Positions 38 to 7,527 of a DNA stretch of 64,000 nt are shown here, one piece after another; the first letter of the stretch is position 1, and every line of letters begins with the position of its first letter. Below the pieces are notes generated by a model. The model saw only the letters and a list, made by a program, of their open reading frames with translations, searched no databases and had not been told where the DNA came from. Made by a program: the position numbers and the translations under genes. Source of the DNA: Bacteroidia bacterium (GTDB lineage: Bacteria > Bacteroidota > Bacteroidia > Bacteroidales > GWA2-32-17); contig JACREQ010000011.1 of NCBI GenBank assembly GCA_016218155.1, forward strand, positions 1 to 64,000. The letters are read 5' to 3'.

Positions 38-1072
38 TTAGAAAATATAATTAAATAAATAACCTACTATCATTATTCCAACTCCTACGATACCTATAAA
101 AGTAAATATTAATGGGAGTTTAAGAACTTTTTTAAGTATAATCATTTCGGGCAAAGATAAAGCAATTACTGACATCATAAATGCAAGTGCAGTTCCTAAT
201 GAAGCGCCCTTTTCTATAAGTACAGATACAATAGGAATTATTCCAGCAGCGTTTGAATACAATGGAATTCCAATTAAAACAGAAAGAGGAACAGCATACC
301 ACACGTCTTTACCCATAAGTGAAGCCATGAATTCTGCTGGAACATAACCATGGGCACCAGCACCAACAACAATTCCAAGAGCAACATATAACCAGACTTT
401 TCCAACAATTTCTTTTACTGCATCGTATCCGAATTTAATTCTATCACTAAAATTTAGTTTTTCTTCAAGATTGTTTTGTCCTATTTTTGTTTCAAAAACC
501 CAGGGTTCAATCCATTTTTCGAGTTTAAGTTTACCTATTACCCATCCAGCAAAAATTGCAATAAATAAGCCTGTTCCGATATAAATTAAAGCTACTTTCC
601 ACCCAAACATACCATACAAAAGAACAACTGCAACTTCGTTAATCATTGGAGCAGCTATAAGAAATGAAAAAGTTACTCCCAATGGAACACCGGTTTCAAC
701 AAAACCAAGAAATAAAGGGATTGCAGAACAGGAACAGAATGGTGTAACAATGCCCAATAAAGAAGCCATTACATTTCCTGTAAATGTTTTTTTTCCTTCG
801 AGAGCTTTTCGTGTACGCTCGGGAGTGAAAAAAGTCCTGATTATTCCTACAAAAAATATTATTAAAGTTAGTAATAACAATACTTTTGGGAATTCGAAAA
901 TAAAAAACCAAATAGTTTCTGCTAAATGGTCTCCCTTAGTCATTCCAAAAACTGAAAAAACCAACCAATCTGTAAAAGGTTGTAAATAGTGGTAGATAGT
1001 GTACCAAATAGGAATAAGTAATAAAGGCAAAATAATTTTACCCTTTGAACTATTAATAAAACTCGTTTTCAT
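38..1072 (-). CDS. arsP: ArsP-like organoarsenical efflux permease
   Basis: A 344-residue polytopic membrane protein with about eight to ten hydrophobic segments. Near residues 111-130 it carries the PFCSCSAIPLF signature, with Cys113 and Cys115, typical of the ArsP_1/DUF318 permease family. Characterised ArsP proteins export trivalent organoarsenicals, and the membrane Cys pair is thought to bind the metalloid. It is the last gene of a minus-strand operon headed by a small thioredoxin and an ArsR, and starts 4 nt after the ArsG-like gene. Length is normal for the family. Family assignment is firm; the substrate is inferred from the neighbours. Many family members are annotated only as 'permease'. 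Confidence 0.85.
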   Translation of the reverse strand: MKTSFINSSKGKIILPLLLIPIWYTIYHYLQPFTDWLVFSVFGMTKGDHLAETIWFFIFEFPKVLLLLTLIIFFVGIIRTFFTPERTRKALEGKKTFTGNVMASLLGIVTPFCSCSAIPLFLGFVETGVPLGVTFSFLIAAPMINEVAVVLLYGMFGWKVALIYIGTGLFIAIFAGWVIGKLKLEKWIEPWVFETKIGQNNLEEKLNFSDRIKFGYDAVKEIVGKVWLYVALGIVVGAGAHGYVPAEFMASLMGKDVWYAVPLSVLIGIPLYSNAAGIIPIVSVLIEKGASLGTALAFMMSVIALSLPEMIILKKVLKLPLIFTFIGIVGVGIMIVGYLFNYIF

Positions 1073-1076
1073 TTTG

Positions 1077-1781
1077 CTAAATTTTAAAATAGAAAATGTA
1101 GATATAATATAATCCTACGAGAATAAATATAATAGCTACTACTCTGCGGAACCATTTTTCAAATGTTTTGACTTTACTGTAAAAGCTACCAATACTTGAG
1201 ATACTAAATGCCAAAAGATAGGCAACAATTATTACAGGCAATCCTGTTGCAATTGCAAAAACAAAAGGTAAATATAATCCTGATACGCTTGAAACTGTCA
1301 TTGGAATTAACATTCCAAAATATAAAACACCACTATATGGACAGAAAGCTAAAGCAAACACAACTCCCAATAAAAATGCCGACCACCAATTATTTTTATT
1401 ATTATTTTCGATTTTCTCCGAAAGCTTACTAAACCCGGGGAATTTAATTTTTATAAAATCAAACATCAATATTCCAACAATAATAAGTAATGGGCCAAGA
1501 AATTTTTCTCCGTTTGATTGGAATAGTTTTGCAACTTTAAAAGTACTTGCACCAAAATATAGAATTAAACCTATAGTTGTGTAACTAAAAGCCCTTCCTA
1601 AAGTGTACCATATTCCATTAAAGAAAATTCTTTTTTTATTTTCAATGTCTTTACTTATAAAACCAATTGCAGTAATGTTAGTAGCAAGCGGACAAGGACT
1701 AATAGCTGTCATTATCCCAAGAAGGAAAGCAGATAGAATAGGAATATTAGTATTGTCAATTAAATTCTGTAAAAATTCCAT
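1077..1781 (-). CDS. arsG: ArsG-like aromatic arsenical efflux permease (CcdA/DsbD-fold)
   Basis: A 234-residue membrane protein with six or seven hydrophobic segments. Two buried Cys motifs, SPCPL at Cys30 and FCPYSG at Cys147, resemble the redox Cys pair of the CcdA/DsbD transmembrane domain. This architecture matches the family called ArsG, found with ArsF in Bacteroides arsenic islands, where the locus is linked to reduction of nitroaryl arsenicals and efflux of the products. It lies 6 nt downstream of an ArsF-like gene and 4 nt upstream of the ArsP-like gene. A plain CcdA thiol-electron carrier is the main alternative and would still fit a redox role with the neighbouring CxxC proteins. 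Confidence 0.75.
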   Translation of the reverse strand: MEFLQNLIDNTNIPILSAFLLGIMTAISPCPLATNITAIGFISKDIENKKRIFFNGIWYTLGRAFSYTTIGLILYFGASTFKVAKLFQSNGEKFLGPLLIIVGILMFDFIKIKFPGFSKLSEKIENNNKNNWWSAFLLGVVFALAFCPYSGVLYFGMLIPMTVSSVSGLYLPFVFAIATGLPVIIVAYLLAFSISSIGSFYSKVKTFEKWFRRVVAIIFILVGLYYIYIFYFKI

Positions 1782-1787
1782 ACATGA

Positions 1788-2201
1788 TTATTTAATATAC
1801 TCATTGATTTTATCTTTCAACCCATTAGTAAATATATCTTCTGTGTGAATTTTTGAAAAAGCAAAATTGGTCAAATCATCAATTTTTACTTCTGCTCCAA
1901 ATTCTATTTTAGTAAGTGCTAATGTAGCTCCATAAGCCTGATATTTTTCGCAGATATATTTGTTTTCAGGGTATTCAACATTAAATGTTTTGAACACTAT
2001 AATTTCACTGTCGAGTTCATTTTTATAGTTTTCGTATAATACTTTAGTTGTAACTGCTTCAATATTTCTGCATGTATTGCATCTGTCTGTTATATGAAAA
2101 TAATAAACAAAAAGCTTTGTCTTTTTATTTATATTTTGGGTTTGCGCAAAAATTGTGAACGTTGTTGACAATATGAATAATGTTAATAATATTTTTCTCA
2201 T
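1788..2201 (-). CDS. arsF: ArsF-like exported Cys protein
   Basis: A 137-residue protein with a signal peptide (about residues 1-19, ending FAQ). A thioredoxin-like core follows with the motif YYFHITDRCNTC, in which Cys41 and Cys44 form a CxxC. The pattern FH-x3-RCxTC followed by a KYQAYG segment is characteristic of the family annotated as 'nitrophenyl compound nitroreductase subunit ArsF'. It is probably periplasmic and may pass electrons with the ArsG-like membrane protein directly downstream. The gene 6 nt upstream is a paralogue with the same motif, so this is a tandem duplicate pair. The function is taken from the family, not shown by the sequence. Confidence 0.75.
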   Translation of the reverse strand: MRKILLTLFILSTTFTIFAQTQNINKKTKLFVYYFHITDRCNTCRNIEAVTTKVLYENYKNELDSEIIVFKTFNVEYPENKYICEKYQAYGATLALTKIEFGAEVKIDDLTNFAFSKIHTEDIFTNGLKDKINEYIK

Positions 2202-2207
2202 GATTTG

Positions 2208-2762
2208 TTATTTTAGATATTCAGTAATTTTATTTTTTAATATTTCAATAAATTTTTCTTCTTTGTTTTTGGCGTATTTAAAGCCATCTCCGGTGAAGTC
2301 AGAGGTTGTTTCTTTGCCTTTAAAGACTCTGGTTACGAATAATGCTGATCCAAAAGCCTGATATTTTTCTGCAATTTTAGAATTTGCTTCATCGTCAACT
2401 GAAAGAATAGAAAGTTTTATAATCCCTTTTTGAACTTCAGTTTTAAAATATGCGTCAAGTGTTTTCTTTGTTGCATTTTCAATTGCAATACATGAAGCGC
2501 AACGATTTGTTACATGAAAGTTATAAATAAGTATTTTTGGTTTTTCCTCTTTTTTTATTGTTACCTCAGTATTTTCTTTATTTTCAATACTTGCAGAATC
2601 TGCAATTGGTAATGATTCAGTTAAGGTATCGGTTATTATTGATGTTATCGAATCGGATTGTGTGATGTTTTCTGAACTGTTAGAGTTTGAATTGCATGAA
2701 GTCAAACAAATGGCTACAATCGTTATTAAAGTAGCAAATTTTATTTTTTTAATAATTTTCAT
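2208..2762 (-). CDS. ArsF-like lipoprotein (second copy)
   Basis: A 184-residue lipoprotein with lipobox CLTSC (lipidated Cys23). A Ser/Thr/Glu-rich linker to about residue 72 is followed by an ArsF-like domain with NFHVTNRCASC (Cys88, Cys91) and KYQAFG. It is the lipid-anchored paralogue of the next gene. The tether suggests action at the membrane surface beside the ArsG-like permease. A 61-bp gap separates it from the upstream arsR, and that gap holds a second copy of the putative operator (2789-2808). The domain call is good. The division of labour between the two ArsF-like proteins is unknown. Confidence 0.72.
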   Translation of the reverse strand: MKIIKKIKFATLITIVAICLTSCNSNSNSSENITQSDSITSIITDTLTESLPIADSASIENKENTEVTIKKEEKPKILIYNFHVTNRCASCIAIENATKKTLDAYFKTEVQKGIIKLSILSVDDEANSKIAEKYQAFGSALFVTRVFKGKETTSDFTGDGFKYAKNKEEKFIEILKNKITEYLK

Positions 2763-2788
2763 ATTCTATATATTTTAAAATGTTTTTT

Positions 2789-2808
2789 ATTTCGCGTAAT
2801 AACGAAAC
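2789..2808. promoter_or_regulatory. Second copy of putative ArsR operator
   Basis: Inverted repeat ATTTCG-N8-CGAAAC with the same arms and the same 8-bp spacer as the element at 3390-3409 upstream of the operon. It lies between arsR and the ArsF-like lipoprotein gene. The spacer here is not a good -7 box, so it may be a secondary binding site or drive a weak internal promoter. The repeat is seen directly; the regulator is inferred. Confidence 0.5.
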
Positions 2809-2823
2809 ATCTAAATAATTAAA

Positions 2824-3123
2824 TTATTTCATAAAATTCTTTAAAAGAATTTTGGCAATTTCCCAATTAGCTTTATTTACACAGTATTTAATTTGAGGTG
2901 GTTCAATATTCCCTTGTATCAATCCTGCGTATTTTAACTCTTTTAAATGTTGAGAAAGTGTTGATCTGGCAATTGGAATATCGCCTATCATTTCTCCGCT
3001 TGTACAGCATGCATTTAAGCCAATAAGCTTTTCCATAATGTATACTCTGGCTGGGTGACTCAGTGCTTTTGCAATACGCGCTATTTGTTCTTGCTGTGCT
3101 GTAAATTTTGGTTTAGTTGCCAT
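2824..3123 (-). CDS. arsR: ArsR-family metalloregulator
   Basis: A 99-residue ArsR/SmtB winged-helix repressor. The motif ALSHPARVYIMEKL is typical, the recognition helix is near residues 50-66 (IARSTLSQHLKELK), and a possible thiolate metalloid site is made of Cys39-Cys40 and Cys81. The start ATG lies one sense codon after the stop of the upstream thioredoxin gene, in the same frame. Its ATG is preceded by TAA-GTA, so translational coupling is likely. It presumably represses its own operon through the inverted repeats at 3390-3409 and 2789-2808. A fused homologue lies at 5667-6209. Confidence 0.9.
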   Translation of the reverse strand: MATKPKFTAQQEQIARIAKALSHPARVYIMEKLIGLNACCTSGEMIGDIPIARSTLSQHLKELKYAGLIQGNIEPPQIKYCVNKANWEIAKILLKNFMK

Positions 3124-3126
3124 TAC

Positions 3127-3366
3127 TTAAATACTTTTTTCAATAATTTCTTTTAATTCCTTTGAATTTGGTACCCGTCCGCTAACTACAACTTTTCCGT
3201 TAATAACTAGGCCAGGGGTTTTCATTATTCCGTATGACATTATTTTCTGAATGTCTTCTTCTTTAACAACAGTAGCATTTATATTCATTTCGGCTAAAGT
3301 GTTAATAACTGTTTTTTCTAAGGTTTTACAATTAGCACAACCTGTGCCTAAAACTTTTATTTCCAT
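3127..3366 (-). CDS. Small thioredoxin-like protein (TM0996/MTH895 type)
   Basis: A 79-residue glutaredoxin-like thioredoxin with the redox motif GCANC (Cys10, Cys13) and the cis-Pro loop KTPGLVING near residue 50. These mini-thioredoxins commonly sit beside ArsR, ArsP and permease genes and are thought to keep thiols reduced or deliver metalloid. It is the first gene of the operon. The downstream arsR is in the same frame, separated by only a stop codon (TAA) and one sense codon. In this position it may correspond to the ArsE component of Bacteroides arsenic islands, but I cannot confirm that name. Confidence 0.85.
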   Translation of the reverse strand: MEIKVLGTGCANCKTLEKTVINTLAEMNINATVVKEEDIQKIMSYGIMKTPGLVINGKVVVSGRVPNSKELKEIIEKSI

Positions 3367-3389
3367 TATTGATAAACTTTTATTTTTAT

Positions 3390-3409
3390 ATTTCGCAAAT
3401 ATACGAAAT
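3390..3409 (-). promoter_or_regulatory. Operon promoter -7 box framed by putative ArsR operator
   Basis: The inverted repeat ATTTCG-N8-CGAAAT encloses exactly 8 bp which, on the minus strand, read TATATTTG, a perfect Bacteroidota -7 box (TAnnTTTG). It lies 24 bp upstream of the thioredoxin ATG. A repressor bound to both arms would cover the core promoter. The same arms and spacing recur at 2789-2808. No clear -33 TTG at the usual distance was found. Binding by the adjacent ArsR is inference. Confidence 0.6.
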
Positions 3410-3477
3410 GATTTACAAAAAATTATTTTTAATTTTGAAATTAATTTTAATTAAACAGTTATTACAAAATCTTAATT

Positions 3478-4155
3478 ATGAAAATTATAAATAGTGGAAA
3501 GCATCATTTGCTGTTGTTATGTTTATGTATAATTATTCCTTTTTGTATTAAAGCACAAGCTAAAGATGAAAAACAACAAATCCTTAATGTTGCAATTCTT
3601 ATTTATGATGGGGTATATGTATTAGATTTTACAGGGCCATTAGAAGTATTTTACGATTCATATTCACAAGATGGTAAACATTTGTTTAATGTGTATACGG
3701 TTTCTGCAAAGGAAGAATTAAAAGCACATAGCGGATTAAAAATTACTCCAGATTATAGTATTAATAATTGTCCTAAACCAGATATTTTTATTGTTCCAGG
3801 AGGTGATTTGGGATTGTTAAAAGATCAGCCAAAACTTAAAGATTGGCTTGTTAATACAGCTAAAGAATCAAAAACATTAATTTCTGTTTGCACAGGTGCA
3901 TTTATTTTAGCTGATGCTGGTTTGCTTGATAATCTTAATATAACAACGTGGCATGGAGCATTAGAGAATTTAAAGAAACTAGTTCCAACTGCGAATGTTA
4001 TGAAAGGTGTTCGTTATACTGATAACGGTAAAGTGGTTACTACTGCTGGTGTTTCGGCAGGTATTGATGGTTCGCTGTTTGTAGTTTCAAAATACTTTGG
4101 CAAAGAGGTAGCTGATGAAACAGCAAAGTATATGGATTATGAATATTGGAAATAA
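3478..4155 (+). CDS. Exported DJ-1/PfpI (class I GATase-like) protein
   Basis: A 225-residue protein with an N-terminal signal peptide (about residues 1-27, ending CIKAQA). A DJ-1/PfpI fold follows: Glu56 in GPLEVF, the nucleophile elbow VCTGAF with Cys138, and WHG with His159. The layout resembles isonitrile hydratase and the sensor domains of AraC-type GATase-like regulators, but there is no DNA-binding domain. Relatives are mostly cytosolic, so export to the periplasm is unusual. It is divergent from the arsenical operon, with a 111-bp shared intergenic region, and converges with the NYN gene 5 bp away. The substrate is unknown. Confidence 0.8.
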   Translation: MKIINSGKHHLLLLCLCIIIPFCIKAQAKDEKQQILNVAILIYDGVYVLDFTGPLEVFYDSYSQDGKHLFNVYTVSAKEELKAHSGLKITPDYSINNCPKPDIFIVPGGDLGLLKDQPKLKDWLVNTAKESKTLISVCTGAFILADAGLLDNLNITTWHGALENLKKLVPTANVMKGVRYTDNGKVVTTAGVSAGIDGSLFVVSKYFGKEVADETAKYMDYEYWK

Positions 4156-4160
4156 AAAAT

Positions 4161-4889
4161 TTATTTTCTCTTAACCATTGGGTGATTTAAACTTCCAACC
4201 TTATTTCTTATTACTTCATATTCTGCTAAACTTTCAAAAAGCTGGGTTAGGGTTTTAAACCCATAAGCACGTGGATCAAAACTTGGATTTATTTTTCTGA
4301 TATTTAATCCTACTTGTGAGATATGTGTTTCGGAGCCTTCGCTAACCGACATGTCGTATGCTTTATTAACAAGTTTAATATCTACTTTAGGATTTTGAGG
4401 CTTTTTGGTTTTAGAATGACTTGAGGTTTTAAGAATAATTTCTGTAACAGTTGGTACAATATTTTCACTATATGTAAATATTTCGCATGATTGAACAAAT
4501 GCATTAGGAGTTTTCTTTTCTCCAATACCCATAACAAAAATGCCTTCTTCTCTTATTCTTTTTGCTAATCCGGTATAGTCACTATCGCTTGAGACAATGC
4601 AAAAACCATCAACTATGTTGTCGTGTAAAATATCCATAGCATCTATAATAAGCGAGCTGTCTGTTGAGTTTTTTCCTGTAGTATATGAGAATTTCTGTAT
4701 CGGAGTAAATGATAAATCATTCAATGATTCTTTCCAGCTACCCATTTGTGGTTTCGTCCAATCGCCATATATTCTGCGAATTGTTACTTTTCCATATTTT
4801 GAAACTTCTTCTAAAATTGGTTTTAATAATTTAGCTTGAGCATTATCTCCATCGACTAATATTGCAATTCTTGTAATAGTGTTTTCCAT
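4161..4889 (-). CDS. NYN-domain (LabA-like) PIN-type ribonuclease with LOTUS/OST-HTH tail
   Basis: A 242-residue protein. Residues 5-150 form a NYN domain with the acidic metal-binding set LVDGDN (Asp13, Asp15, Asn16), Asp77 in STDSS, and SSDSDY (Asp102, Asp104). About residues 165-235 resemble an OST-HTH/LOTUS RNA-binding domain, including INPSFDPRAYGFKTLTQLFE. NYN-LOTUS proteins are expected to be RNA endonucleases, though few bacterial ones have been tested. It lies downstream of a lipoprotein gene on the same strand (26-bp gap). The acidic residues are intact, so it should be catalytically competent. Confidence 0.85.
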   Translation of the reverse strand: MENTITRIAILVDGDNAQAKLLKPILEEVSKYGKVTIRRIYGDWTKPQMGSWKESLNDLSFTPIQKFSYTTGKNSTDSSLIIDAMDILHDNIVDGFCIVSSDSDYTGLAKRIREEGIFVMGIGEKKTPNAFVQSCEIFTYSENIVPTVTEIILKTSSHSKTKKPQNPKVDIKLVNKAYDMSVSEGSETHISQVGLNIRKINPSFDPRAYGFKTLTQLFESLAEYEVIRNKVGSLNHPMVKRK

Positions 4890-4915
4890 TGTGTTATTTT
4901 TGTAAAGTATAAAAT

Positions 4916-5518
4916 TTATTCAGCGCTGGCTCCAATAAAAATGCTAGTTACTTTTTTGTTTTCAAATGTAAAAACTATGCCTCCGTATATTGTTCCTGCT
5001 ACAATTTGAAACTCTGTAGTCTGAGATTTGTCTATCTCATTTGAATATTTATTTGTTACATCTGTGATATTGCTTCCTATTCCAATATTTCTTGAAGTTT
5101 TTGCATCACTTGGGGACTTTACATAAATGGAGTTTACTACCTGATTAGAATTTTCTGCACCTATCATATCAAGTTCTACATTTTGGTTTGCGTATGTCCA
5201 CTTCTGATGAATCTGACCATCGGAACCCCATTCTTCTGCAGTTGACTTTTCATCAGGATATCCAATTATTTCAATAACATTATTTGATTGCATGTCTTTT
5301 TTAATTCCCCATATAGATTCATTTTTCATCAGATTATTTCCTATTTCATCAAAAGTTTCCTGAGAGATAGTATTTTCAGAGTTGATAGAAATAGAATCAA
5401 TTATTTTACTATTGAAGTCAGAATTGATTAAAGATTTACTAATATCATTACTATTATTGGTGCATCCCCATAGAAAGATTAAAGAAATGCCAAGAATTAT
5501 ATAAACTTGATTTTTCAT
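4916..5518 (-). CDS. Lipoprotein of unknown function
   Basis: A 200-residue lipoprotein with lipobox LWGC (lipidated Cys19) and a Ser/Asn/Ile-rich linker. The C-terminal half contains IIGYPDEKSTAEEWG and a HQKWTYANQNVELDM strand pattern. This recalls small outer-membrane assembly (SmpA/BamE-like) or DUF-type beta domains in which a GxP turn precedes a Trp/Tyr strand. I do not recognise the family with certainty. It is followed by the NYN gene on the same strand. Confidence 0.6.
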   Translation of the reverse strand: MKNQVYIILGISLIFLWGCTNNSNDISKSLINSDFNSKIIDSISINSENTISQETFDEIGNNLMKNESIWGIKKDMQSNNVIEIIGYPDEKSTAEEWGSDGQIHQKWTYANQNVELDMIGAENSNQVVNSIYVKSPSDAKTSRNIGIGSNITDVTNKYSNEIDKSQTTEFQIVAGTIYGGIVFTFENKKVTSIFIGASAE

Positions 5519-5608
5519 GTTAGAAAATTTAAAAACATTAATTTCTTATTCAAAAATACAATAGTTAATCTAATAACTACATAAAATGGTAATTTAGTTT
5601 TTAATATT

Positions 5609-5642
5609 AAAAAAAAGTCCGGCTCTTTAATTAGAACCGGAC
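5609..5642 (-). terminator. Rho-independent terminator after the thioredoxin-ArsR fusion gene
   Basis: On the minus strand, the 9-bp stem GTCCGGTTC/GAGCCGGAC (one G-U pair) has an 8-nt loop and is followed by a run of eight T. It lies about 25 bp past the stop codon of the fusion gene. Confidence 0.85.
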
Positions 5643-5666
5643 CAGAAAATTATAATAATTGTAGTT

Positions 5667-6209
5667 TTATTTTAAGAAATTTGTTATAAGTATTTTAGCA
5701 ATCTCTACATTAATTCTGTTAAGGCAAAAATTAATTTTTGGTGGAACAATGTCGCCTTGAATTAAACCTGCGCTTTTTAATATTTTTAAATGTTCTGCAA
5801 GTGTATCATGGTCAATAGGTGTGTCGCCAATGCTGTCGCAACTGGTGCAGCATGTGTGCATGGAATTTAAAGTTTCTAATATAAAAATTCTTGCAGGGTG
5901 TGATAATGCCAGTCCGATACGTGCAATTTGTTCCTGATTACTTGTATATTTTACTTTTGGTTCAGCGTTTTTAATAGATTGTTTGATAATATCCTTAATT
6001 TCTTTGTTAGTAGGTATTTTTCCACTTAATACTACTCTATTATCAATTACTAATCCAGGTGTACGGATAATTCCATATGCCATAATTTCGTTAATGTCTT
6101 CAACTTCCTCAACATTTGCATCAATTTTCATTTCTGATAAGGTTTCCTTAACGGCATTTTCAAATACTCTGCAATTATGACATCCAGCTCCTAAAACTTT
6201 AATATTCAT
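5667..6209 (-). CDS. Thioredoxin-ArsR fusion regulator
   Basis: A 180-residue single protein. Residues 1-79 match the small thioredoxin at 3127-3366 (GCHNC with Cys10 and Cys13, and RTPGLVID). Residues 82-180 match the ArsR at 2824-3123 (ALSHPARIFILETL, Cys120-Cys121, Cys162). The split pair plus its stop codon and one linker codon also spans exactly 180 codons, so the two loci align without gaps. Codon 80 is AAA (Lys) here and TAA there. Compared with the split ArsR it gains Cys124 (CCTSC), and its recognition helix reads IDHDTLAEHLK, more acidic than IARSTLSQHLK. It stands alone with its own terminator and an AT-rich upstream region. Redox gating of repression is possible but unproven. Confidence 0.9.
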   Translation of the reverse strand: MNIKVLGAGCHNCRVFENAVKETLSEMKIDANVEEVEDINEIMAYGIIRTPGLVIDNRVVLSGKIPTNKEIKDIIKQSIKNAEPKVKYTSNQEQIARIGLALSHPARIFILETLNSMHTCCTSCDSIGDTPIDHDTLAEHLKILKSAGLIQGDIVPPKINFCLNRINVEIAKILITNFLK

Positions 6210-6492
6210 ATTGGTTTTTAAATATTATTTTAATAAAATATATTTTAATAAAAATTTTATTTGAGTATACACAAATAATCTTTGTAAATTTACAATATAA
6301 CTAACTAGGTAAAACACAAAAAATTATGATTCTTATCAATATTAAAGAACATAATTTTAATAGCATCTTGTTTGAATCATATTAATTATTAGGAATTTTA
6401 GAAAATAAAGTACCTTTAATAATTAATAGTTAAAAAGGATAGTTTTATATTAATTGTAAGAAATTTAATAAAAAATAAAATGCATAATAATT
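6210..6492. other. AT-rich intergenic region with a palindrome
   Basis: 283 bp, very AT-rich, without a convincing ORF (the longest start-to-stop stretch noticed codes for only 19 residues). It holds a perfect 14-bp palindrome TTGTAAATTTACAA at 6282-6295, 73-86 bp upstream of the fusion gene, and a direct repeat of ATTTTAATAAAA. It is probably the promoter and operator region of the fusion gene. No TAnnTTTG box was found in the expected place. Confidence 0.45.
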
Positions 6493-6936
6493 TTAGAACA
6501 AATTATCTGTTTTAAATTCTGTATAAAAATCCATAATTATCTTTTTGTGATCAAATGCTAATTCAGGCAGTTCTTTAATATCGAACCATTTTGCTTTTGA
6601 TGCATCATCACCTGCTGTTGGTGTATCCATCTTTTTTATTTCAGCAAAGTAAACAACAGATATTGTTCTTCCACGAGGGTCTCTTCCCGGATTTCCGTAT
6701 GTTGCAAATTGTTCTACATTTTCTAGTAGAAGTCCTGTTTCTTCTTGTAATTCTCTTAAAGCAGATTTTTCTAATGTTTCTTCCATTTCTATAAATCCAC
6801 CTGGCAATGCCCATGTGTTTTCAAATGGAGGATGCTTTCGTTCAATTAAAAGAATGTGAATTTGATCTTGCTGTTTGTATAAAACAATAATATCCACGCA
6901 CACTGAAGGACGTGGATATTCATATGTATAAGGCAT
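6493..6936 (-). CDS. NUDIX hydrolase
   Basis: A 147-residue NUDIX protein. The box G-x5-E-x7-REUxEExGU is complete from Gly47 to Leu69 (GGFIEMEET then RELQEETGL). The following YGNPGRDPRGRTISVVY segment is common in ADP-ribose pyrophosphatase-like and NrtR-like NUDIX proteins, but no DNA-binding tail is present, so it is most likely a cytosolic hydrolase of a nucleoside diphosphate derivative. It starts 4 bp after tlpA and ends the pcrA-DUF4290-murA-tlpA run. The substrate cannot be read from the sequence. Confidence 0.88.
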   Translation of the reverse strand: MPYTYEYPRPSVCVDIIVLYKQQDQIHILLIERKHPPFENTWALPGGFIEMEETLEKSALRELQEETGLLLENVEQFATYGNPGRDPRGRTISVVYFAEIKKMDTPTAGDDASKAKWFDIKELPELAFDHKKIIMDFYTEFKTDNLF

Positions 6937-6940
6937 ATAT

Positions 6941-7498
6941 TTATTCTTTTAACTGAGAGTCCAGTGCTTGTTCAAGTGCAGCACCTCTAAGATTTGACGC
7001 AACTATTATTCCATCACCGTCAATTAACCAGTTTGTTGGAATTCCTTGTACTTTATAAGTTCTTGCGGCTTCTGAGCTCCAGTATTTAAGATCGCTAACA
7101 TGATTGTCCCATATTAATCCATCTTTTGTTATTGCTGCTTTCCAGCTTTCAGCACTCTGGTCTAAAGATACACTGTAAATTGTAAAACCTTTTCCGTTTT
7201 TATATTTTTTGTCTTTGTATTTATTATATGCTGCAACAACACTGGGGTTTTCTCTACGACAAGGACCGCACCATGAAGCCCAGAAATCTATTAATACCAT
7301 TTTACCTTTTAATGAACTAAGTGCTATTTCTTTACCTTCTGGGTTTTTAAATTTTAGTTCGGGAGCTTTGTTACCAATTGCTAATCCCACATCTGTTTTT
7401 TCACCTCCGTAGGTTACTGTTTTTTTATTATGCGAAATAAAACCATAAGCCAGTATGCTTACTAGTGCTATAATTGAAATTAATCTTATTGTTTTCAT
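6941..7498 (-). CDS. TlpA/ResA-family periplasmic thioredoxin
   Basis: A 185-residue protein with an N-terminal signal or anchor (about residues 5-22). A TlpA-like redoxin domain follows with DFWASWCGPCRREN (Cys77, Cys80) and the cis-Pro loop VQGIPTNWLID. These proteins reduce disulfides outside the cytoplasm, for example in cytochrome maturation, or act as general thiol oxidoreductases in Bacteroidota. It lies 29 bp downstream of murA and 4 bp upstream of the NUDIX gene. The specific partner is unknown. Confidence 0.87.
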   Translation of the reverse strand: MKTIRLISIIALVSILAYGFISHNKKTVTYGGEKTDVGLAIGNKAPELKFKNPEGKEIALSSLKGKMVLIDFWASWCGPCRRENPSVVAAYNKYKDKKYKNGKGFTIYSVSLDQSAESWKAAITKDGLIWDNHVSDLKYWSSEAARTYKVQGIPTNWLIDGDGIIVASNLRGAALEQALDSQLKE

Positions 7499-7527
7499 GA
7501 TTTTTTGGTTTTTGTAAAATTACAATT

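Follow-up and report, generated by a model that had tools for sequence, protein, structure and literature searches.

SqrR belongs to the ArsR family of repressors. In Rhodobacter capsulatus it is bound by the thioredoxin TrxC, which reduces a polysulfide link and restores repression (PMC10044876). Redox-responsive ArsR repressors have also been reported for an ars operon (PMC9137774). RexT and the other redox-sensing ArsR repressors cited in the latter source have the winged-helix ArsR fold, and Cys-based sensing has been proposed for them. ArsE-type thioredoxins accompany arsenic operons, and the literature searched gave no paper settling their role. Repressors joined to a functional domain are known as well, among them the rhodanese-ArsR fusions. 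In ArsRM (PMC10190100) the repressor is joined to a functional domain that elsewhere is encoded next to it, as is the case in the gene described here.

The locus studied stems from a genus of uncultured lake bacteria and encodes an ArsE-type thioredoxin and an ArsR repressor twice, as two adjacent genes (the split pair) and as a single gene (the fused gene). Both lie in the window, i.e. the whole stretch of 64,000 nucleotides that was analysed (Table 1).

Table 1. Positions of genes, sites and predicted control elements in the window
Feature	Position	Strand	Remarks
ArsP_1 family permease	38..1072	-	profile match
ArsG-family DsbD-like permease	1077..1781	-	profile match
ArsF-family protein 2	1788..2201	-	profile match
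ArsF-family protein 1	2208..2762	-	thioredoxin-like, lipoprotein-type signal
Split ArsR repressor	2824..3123	-	99 aa; ATG one codon past the thioredoxin TAA
Split thioredoxin (ArsE/MTH895 family)	3127..3366	-	79 aa; stop TAA at 3127-3129
Predicted operator	3390..3409	-	ATTTCG-TATATTTG-CGAAAT; overlaps TAnnTTTG-type -7 element
Intrinsic terminator	5608..5643	-	directly 3' of the fused gene; fold z = -5.2
Fused gene	5667..6209	-	Thioredoxin_3/ArsE-like domain aa 1-79, linker about 80-88, ArsR-type winged helix about 89-180
Recognition-helix region of fused gene (aa 132-146)	5772..5816	-	DHDTLAEHLKILK versus ARSTLSQHLKELK, the latter invariant in split ArsRs
Cys site of fused ArsR half	5838..5852	-	C120-C121-T-S-C124; third Cys gained relative to CCTSG of the split form
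Codon 80 of fused gene	5970..5972	-	AAA; stop TAA in the split pair
Thioredoxin-type CxxC active site	6171..6182	-	C10-H-N-C13
Conserved upstream block of fused gene	6270..6390		ATGTTCTT-N10-AAGAATCAT plus FNR-like TTGATAAGAATCAT (6326-6339)

The split pair and its operon

The split pair stands at the head of an operon that extends on the minus strand from 3366 to 38 and contains, in this order, the genes of the thioredoxin, ArsR, two ArsF proteins, ArsG and ArsP_1. Judged by its profile matches, the pair with its operon belongs to the arsEFG-type operons (TIGR00412, ArsF NF040494, ArsG NF040495). The two ArsF genes are arranged in tandem (1788-2762), and the copy number and divergence of ArsF differ among related operons. 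Translation of 3366-2824 yields the thioredoxin of 79 aa, TAA, GTA, ATG and the ArsR of 99 aa in a single frame, a stretch of 180 codons with the stop and the spacer codon included.

Upstream of the pair, the predicted operator ATTTCG-N8-CGAAAT occurs 35-47 nt before the thioredoxin start in the 11 split operons compared, and once per genome in all four genomes of the genus that have the split operon. Its inner bases form a TAnnTTTG-type -7 element, a promoter type of the Bacteroidota, and the split operon shows the anatomy expected of an autorepressed operon. A divergent DJ-1/PfpI gene lies at 3478; the operator is located upstream of this gene too and might control both.

The fused gene

The fused gene encodes 180 aa without interruption (translation of 6209-5667, minus strand), with the domains in the order of the split pair. 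Its thioredoxin half retains CxxC and the cis-Pro (TP) loop, with TPG at residues 50-52, and scores 95.8 bits against TIGR00412 (cut-off 62; split thioredoxin 108.3) and 90.4 against PF13192 (cut-off 24.8; split thioredoxin 98.1). The ArsR half contains the Cys residues C120, C121, C124 and C162. With 14.8 bits against PF01022 (cut-off 22; split ArsR 28.5) and 28.5 against NF033788 (cut-off 55; split ArsR 43.3) it remains under both cut-offs, and from the low score against Pfam HTH_5 it follows that DNA binding might be weakened. In a structure model based on an alignment of proteins from the window and related loci, each domain folds well (pLDDT 87) and the mutual placement of the domains is not confident (pTM 0.53). 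The first half matches the fold of the MtH895 thioredoxin (1ilo, TMt 0.79), the second half the folds of the ArsR proteins SrnR (7p6f, TMt 0.67-0.70) and oxidised RexT (7txm). According to the model, the second half is a winged-helix fold with the helices in ArsR order.

Aligned without gaps, the split and the fused form are identical at 104 of 181 positions in register, as compared with 8-18 at offsets of 1-3, which is far beyond chance. Identity amounts to 57% in the thioredoxin half and 60% in the ArsR half, likewise without gaps, and to 65% overall at the nucleotide level. These results bear out several observations of the first-pass annotation, which was made from the sequence alone: a same-frame split pair of 180 codons and a fused gene of 180 codons coexist in one genome, they align without gaps, and codon 80 is TAA in the one (3127-3129) and AAA in the other (5970-5972). 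Its further claim, that a single base change switches between the forms, holds for the stop codon, which differs by one base, but does not extend to the codons that follow, nor to sequences with 65% nucleotide identity. Codons 81 (GTA split, AAC fused) and 82 (ATG split, GCT fused) each differ in all three bases, so that the ArsR start ATG of the split pair is absent from the fused gene. The two forms are one stop codon apart in reading frame, not in history.

Occurrence and selection

A search of the family, the order and the phylum to which the window genome belongs (about 800 Bacteroidota genomes) revealed unbroken full-length fused matches solely in the window genome and in two others of the same genus, G008 (87% identity) and G009 (86%); no fused form was found outside the genus among these genomes. 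Only two full-length relatives (87% and 86%) came out of a pattern scan of 84,980 species genomes, a scan limited in its reach to close relatives, and no plasmid record covers 80% of the fused protein. The locus order NUDIX - fused - NYN - divergent DJ-1 - split ars operon is common to the three fused-bearing genomes. G006, a genus member with 95% completeness, has the split operon but no fused gene and no NYN gene; the fifth member, G007 (74% complete), shows neither the split pair nor the fused gene. The interval that separates the fused gene from the ars operon includes a gene (4161-4889) for an NYN plus OST-HTH/LOTUS protein, which among six related genomes is present only in those two that carry the fused gene.

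At codon 80, the fused genes of the two other genomes have AGA or AAA. Over its whole length the gene has a dN/dS (Nei-Gojobori, three genomes) of 0.06-0.08, and each half taken alone gives 0.05-0.12, at a dS of about 1, which means that the open junction was kept while silent sites became nearly saturated. The fusion is real and is maintained by selection. A sequencing error at codon 80, against which the first-pass annotation had cautioned, and an assembly error in the fused gene are rejected by the frame being open in all three genomes; the split form is equally sound since its relatives have independent stops, TAA or TGA. Interpretation as a decaying gene is rejected by the dN/dS of 0.06-0.08.

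Reading frame at the split junction

It had also been suggested that occasional readthrough of the TAA provides fused protein from the split locus. The split pair of the window would be suited to this, as its genes are in frame with one codon between the stop and the ATG. In a survey of 25 thioredoxin-first split pairs, a sample biased to in-frame pairs through their longer matches, the ArsR frames 0, 1 and 2, counted from that of the thioredoxin, were distributed 12:10:3, and the excess of frame 0 is not significant (12/25, p = 0.09; 8/20 in a narrower set, p = 0.34). Within the genus, two of four members (G008 and G006) have an out-of-frame overlapping ATAATG junction despite ArsR proteins that are 90-100% identical to that of the window, and in G009 the stop is TGA. 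Readthrough as a conserved feature of the split locus is rejected by this survey, and the formation of even a little fused protein by this route is very improbable. Most split pairs keep ArsR close to the thioredoxin stop, at a distance of about -1 to +6 nt, and conservation of the spacing, but not of the frame, argues for translational coupling rather than a shared reading frame.

Origin of the fusion

Maximum-likelihood trees were calculated for each half alone, and a joined alignment was added for topology tests. The three fused sequences form one clade in the trees of both halves (100/100 and 98/100), and the ArsR half is nested in an 18-row group of thioredoxin-first split pairs (support 98/98); the tree of the thioredoxin half, a short sequence, is poorly resolved. 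Trees of the two halves had been named in the first-pass annotation as a check on its proposal, and they place both with the split thioredoxin-ArsR pairs, which implies that both derive from one kind of split pair by a single fusion event. In many Bacteroidota loci examined (L050-L088) the order is mostly ArsR first, then thioredoxin. Thioredoxin-first pairs with near-zero spacing are common in part of the window's order, and the split state is therefore regarded as ancestral. Measured from the first codon of the thioredoxin, the ArsR anchor lies 252 nt away in the fused gene, as it does in most frame-0 split pairs. This agrees with an in-frame pair having lost its stop codon with no insertion or deletion.

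We propose that a translationally coupled thioredoxin-ArsR pair, of the type found at the head of arsEFG-type operons in the order, was copied no later than in the ancestor of the genus. In the copy, the in-frame stop would have become a sense codon, creating a product with the ArsE-type thioredoxin at the N terminus and the ArsR winged helix at the C terminus. Copying and stop loss resulting in one chain are supported by anatomy, synteny and trees, and a split pair, its copy, stop-codon loss at unchanged length and subsequent divergence form the likely sequence of events. The locus would then show a protein fusion before and after the loss of a single stop codon, the two forms being present in one genome.

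The trees do not support a fused gene nested within the genus's own split pairs: grouping the fused sequences with these pairs is disfavoured by the joined alignment (p-AU 0.036) but is not rejected with either half by itself (0.35 and 0.24), and a slightly wider grouping with split pairs was not rejected (p-AU 0.20). The stems of the fused clade measure 0.47-0.85 changes per site, 0.80 for the ArsR half and 0.47 for the thioredoxin half. A long stem and the lack of a near relationship to the split pair of the genus would also be expected if an already fused gene had been transferred into the genus from an unsampled lineage, the fusion event having taken place outside the genus, and G006, devoid of the fused gene and of the adjoining NYN gene, agrees with such an import. 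Arguing against it is the lack of any fused relative outside the genus, both in the approximately 800 genomes and in the close-relative scan of 84,980, and we regard transfer as rather unlikely. Transfer bears on the history alone and would not conflict with the redox mechanism proposed below.

Divergence and control of the fused gene

Among 15 split relatives, 71 columns of ArsR are near-invariant; divergence was determined for these, a change being scored if it occurred in all three fused proteins. Twenty-two columns are changed: 7 of 16 in the recognition-helix region, where ARSTLSQHLKEL is replaced by DHDTLAEHLKIL, 6 of 24 in a1-a2 and 1 of 6 in a5, the last helix. The thioredoxin half has 8 of 43 near-invariant columns changed. 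At the Cys site, CCTSG of the split form is replaced by CCTSC or CCTDC. The split ArsR of another genome (G115; L102, pair at 3054-3594) has CYTSG for CCTSG and has thus lost a Cys that its near relatives keep. The view that the two forms toggle easily, in either direction, is not supported, given the single origin of the fused clade on a long stem and the differences in helix, Cys site and operator.

The operator ATTTCG-N8-CGAAAT was not found upstream of the fused gene; its sole copy in the genome is that of the split operon, and an operator common to both genes is rejected since the exact pattern occurs once per genome. What precedes the fused gene is a conserved block (about 100 nt, at roughly -190 to -70) that occurs once in each of the three genomes; the other two match the window there at 87-88% identity. 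This block is a candidate control site of the fused gene. The 20-nt form of its motif occurs at the fused gene alone, and near-matches to it are no more frequent than those to a reversed control. Assignment of the block to an FNR-like regulon (TTGAT-N4-ATCAT) was rejected, the 14-nt match being within chance for the window. The terminator 3' of the fused gene has equivalents in both orthologues, and this strong element makes the gene its own unit at the 3' end. No Rfam match to an RNA element was obtained at 2500-7500.

The location of the fused gene near the ars operon in all three genomes raises the question of whether its product modifies the split ArsR, pairing with it via the conserved dimer helices into mixed dimers that, owing to the altered recognition helix, weaken or redox-tune repression at the ars operator. 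The presumed dimer regions are indeed better kept (6/24 in a1-a2 and 1/6 in a5) than the recognition helix (7/16). However, six of the 22 ArsR changes reside in a1-a2, and an upstream block that is conserved and unique is in keeping with a separate site for the fused protein; mixed dimers are unlikely.

Proposed function

We favor a different model, in which the fused copy came to stand alone as a single gene with a diverged recognition helix and Cys site and the original pair retained the operator of the ars operon, an arrangement apparent in the sequences compared. The tethered CxxC would reduce the CC-x2-C site of the ArsR half or relay thiol exchange to it, and DNA binding would thereby follow thiol redox or stress by thiophilic agents, with a quick reset. 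Given the changed helix and the absence of the ars operator upstream of the fused gene, the target is probably not that operator but the gene's own promoter or some other site. The fused protein is, in our judgement, probably a diverged, stand-alone single-chain thiol-redox regulator.

The fusion further suggests a direct action of the thioredoxin on the repressor, a reasonable conclusion in light of domain-fusion logic, the tight coupling of the split pairs and the precedent of TrxC and SqrR. It is a more tentative proposal, and on balance a doubtful one, that the fused protein works as a redox sensor by itself, its tethered thioredoxin setting the thiol state of the attached repressor domain, and that the split ArsE likewise sets the thiol state of ArsR in arsEFG operons throughout the order. 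Were it true, ArsE would be a partner of the regulator and not only a detoxification enzyme.

Alternatively, the thioredoxin half might serve as an acceptor of metalloids or organoarsenicals, its CxxC binding trivalent arsenic and passing it to the ArsR half in a two-site sensor. Affiliation with the MTH895/ArsE family, occurrence of the split form within an arsEFG-type operon and the third Cys gained in the fused ArsR half are in accord with this function, as is a weak resemblance of the thioredoxin to the ArsD chaperone profile. The latter is far under the cut-off and may only mirror the shared thioredoxin fold, and we consider an arsenic acceptor distinctly unlikely.

Relation to known systems

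Unlike the arsEFG-type operons, to which the split pair belongs, the fused gene is situated outside the operon as a single gene with ArsE and ArsR in one chain. RexT-type repressor chains are not known to contain a thioredoxin domain, in contrast to the fused protein. In comparison with ArsRM and the rhodanese-ArsR fusions, the partner here is N-terminal and is an ArsE-type thioredoxin. No thioredoxin-ArsR fusion was encountered in the literature searched, mainly freely accessible papers, and as far as these searches go the protein represents a new domain arrangement of known families. A natural, selected fusion to the neighbouring repressor points to direct contact between thioredoxin and repressor, and the fused protein offers a compact subject for testing redox control of an ArsR. 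In mode of action the fused protein would resemble SqrR and TrxC, where a thioredoxin acts on Cys of an ArsR-family repressor and resets it, as is proposed for the fused protein; there, the two are separate proteins and the thioredoxin is a general one, whereas in the fused protein the repressor is preceded, in one chain, by a dedicated thioredoxin.
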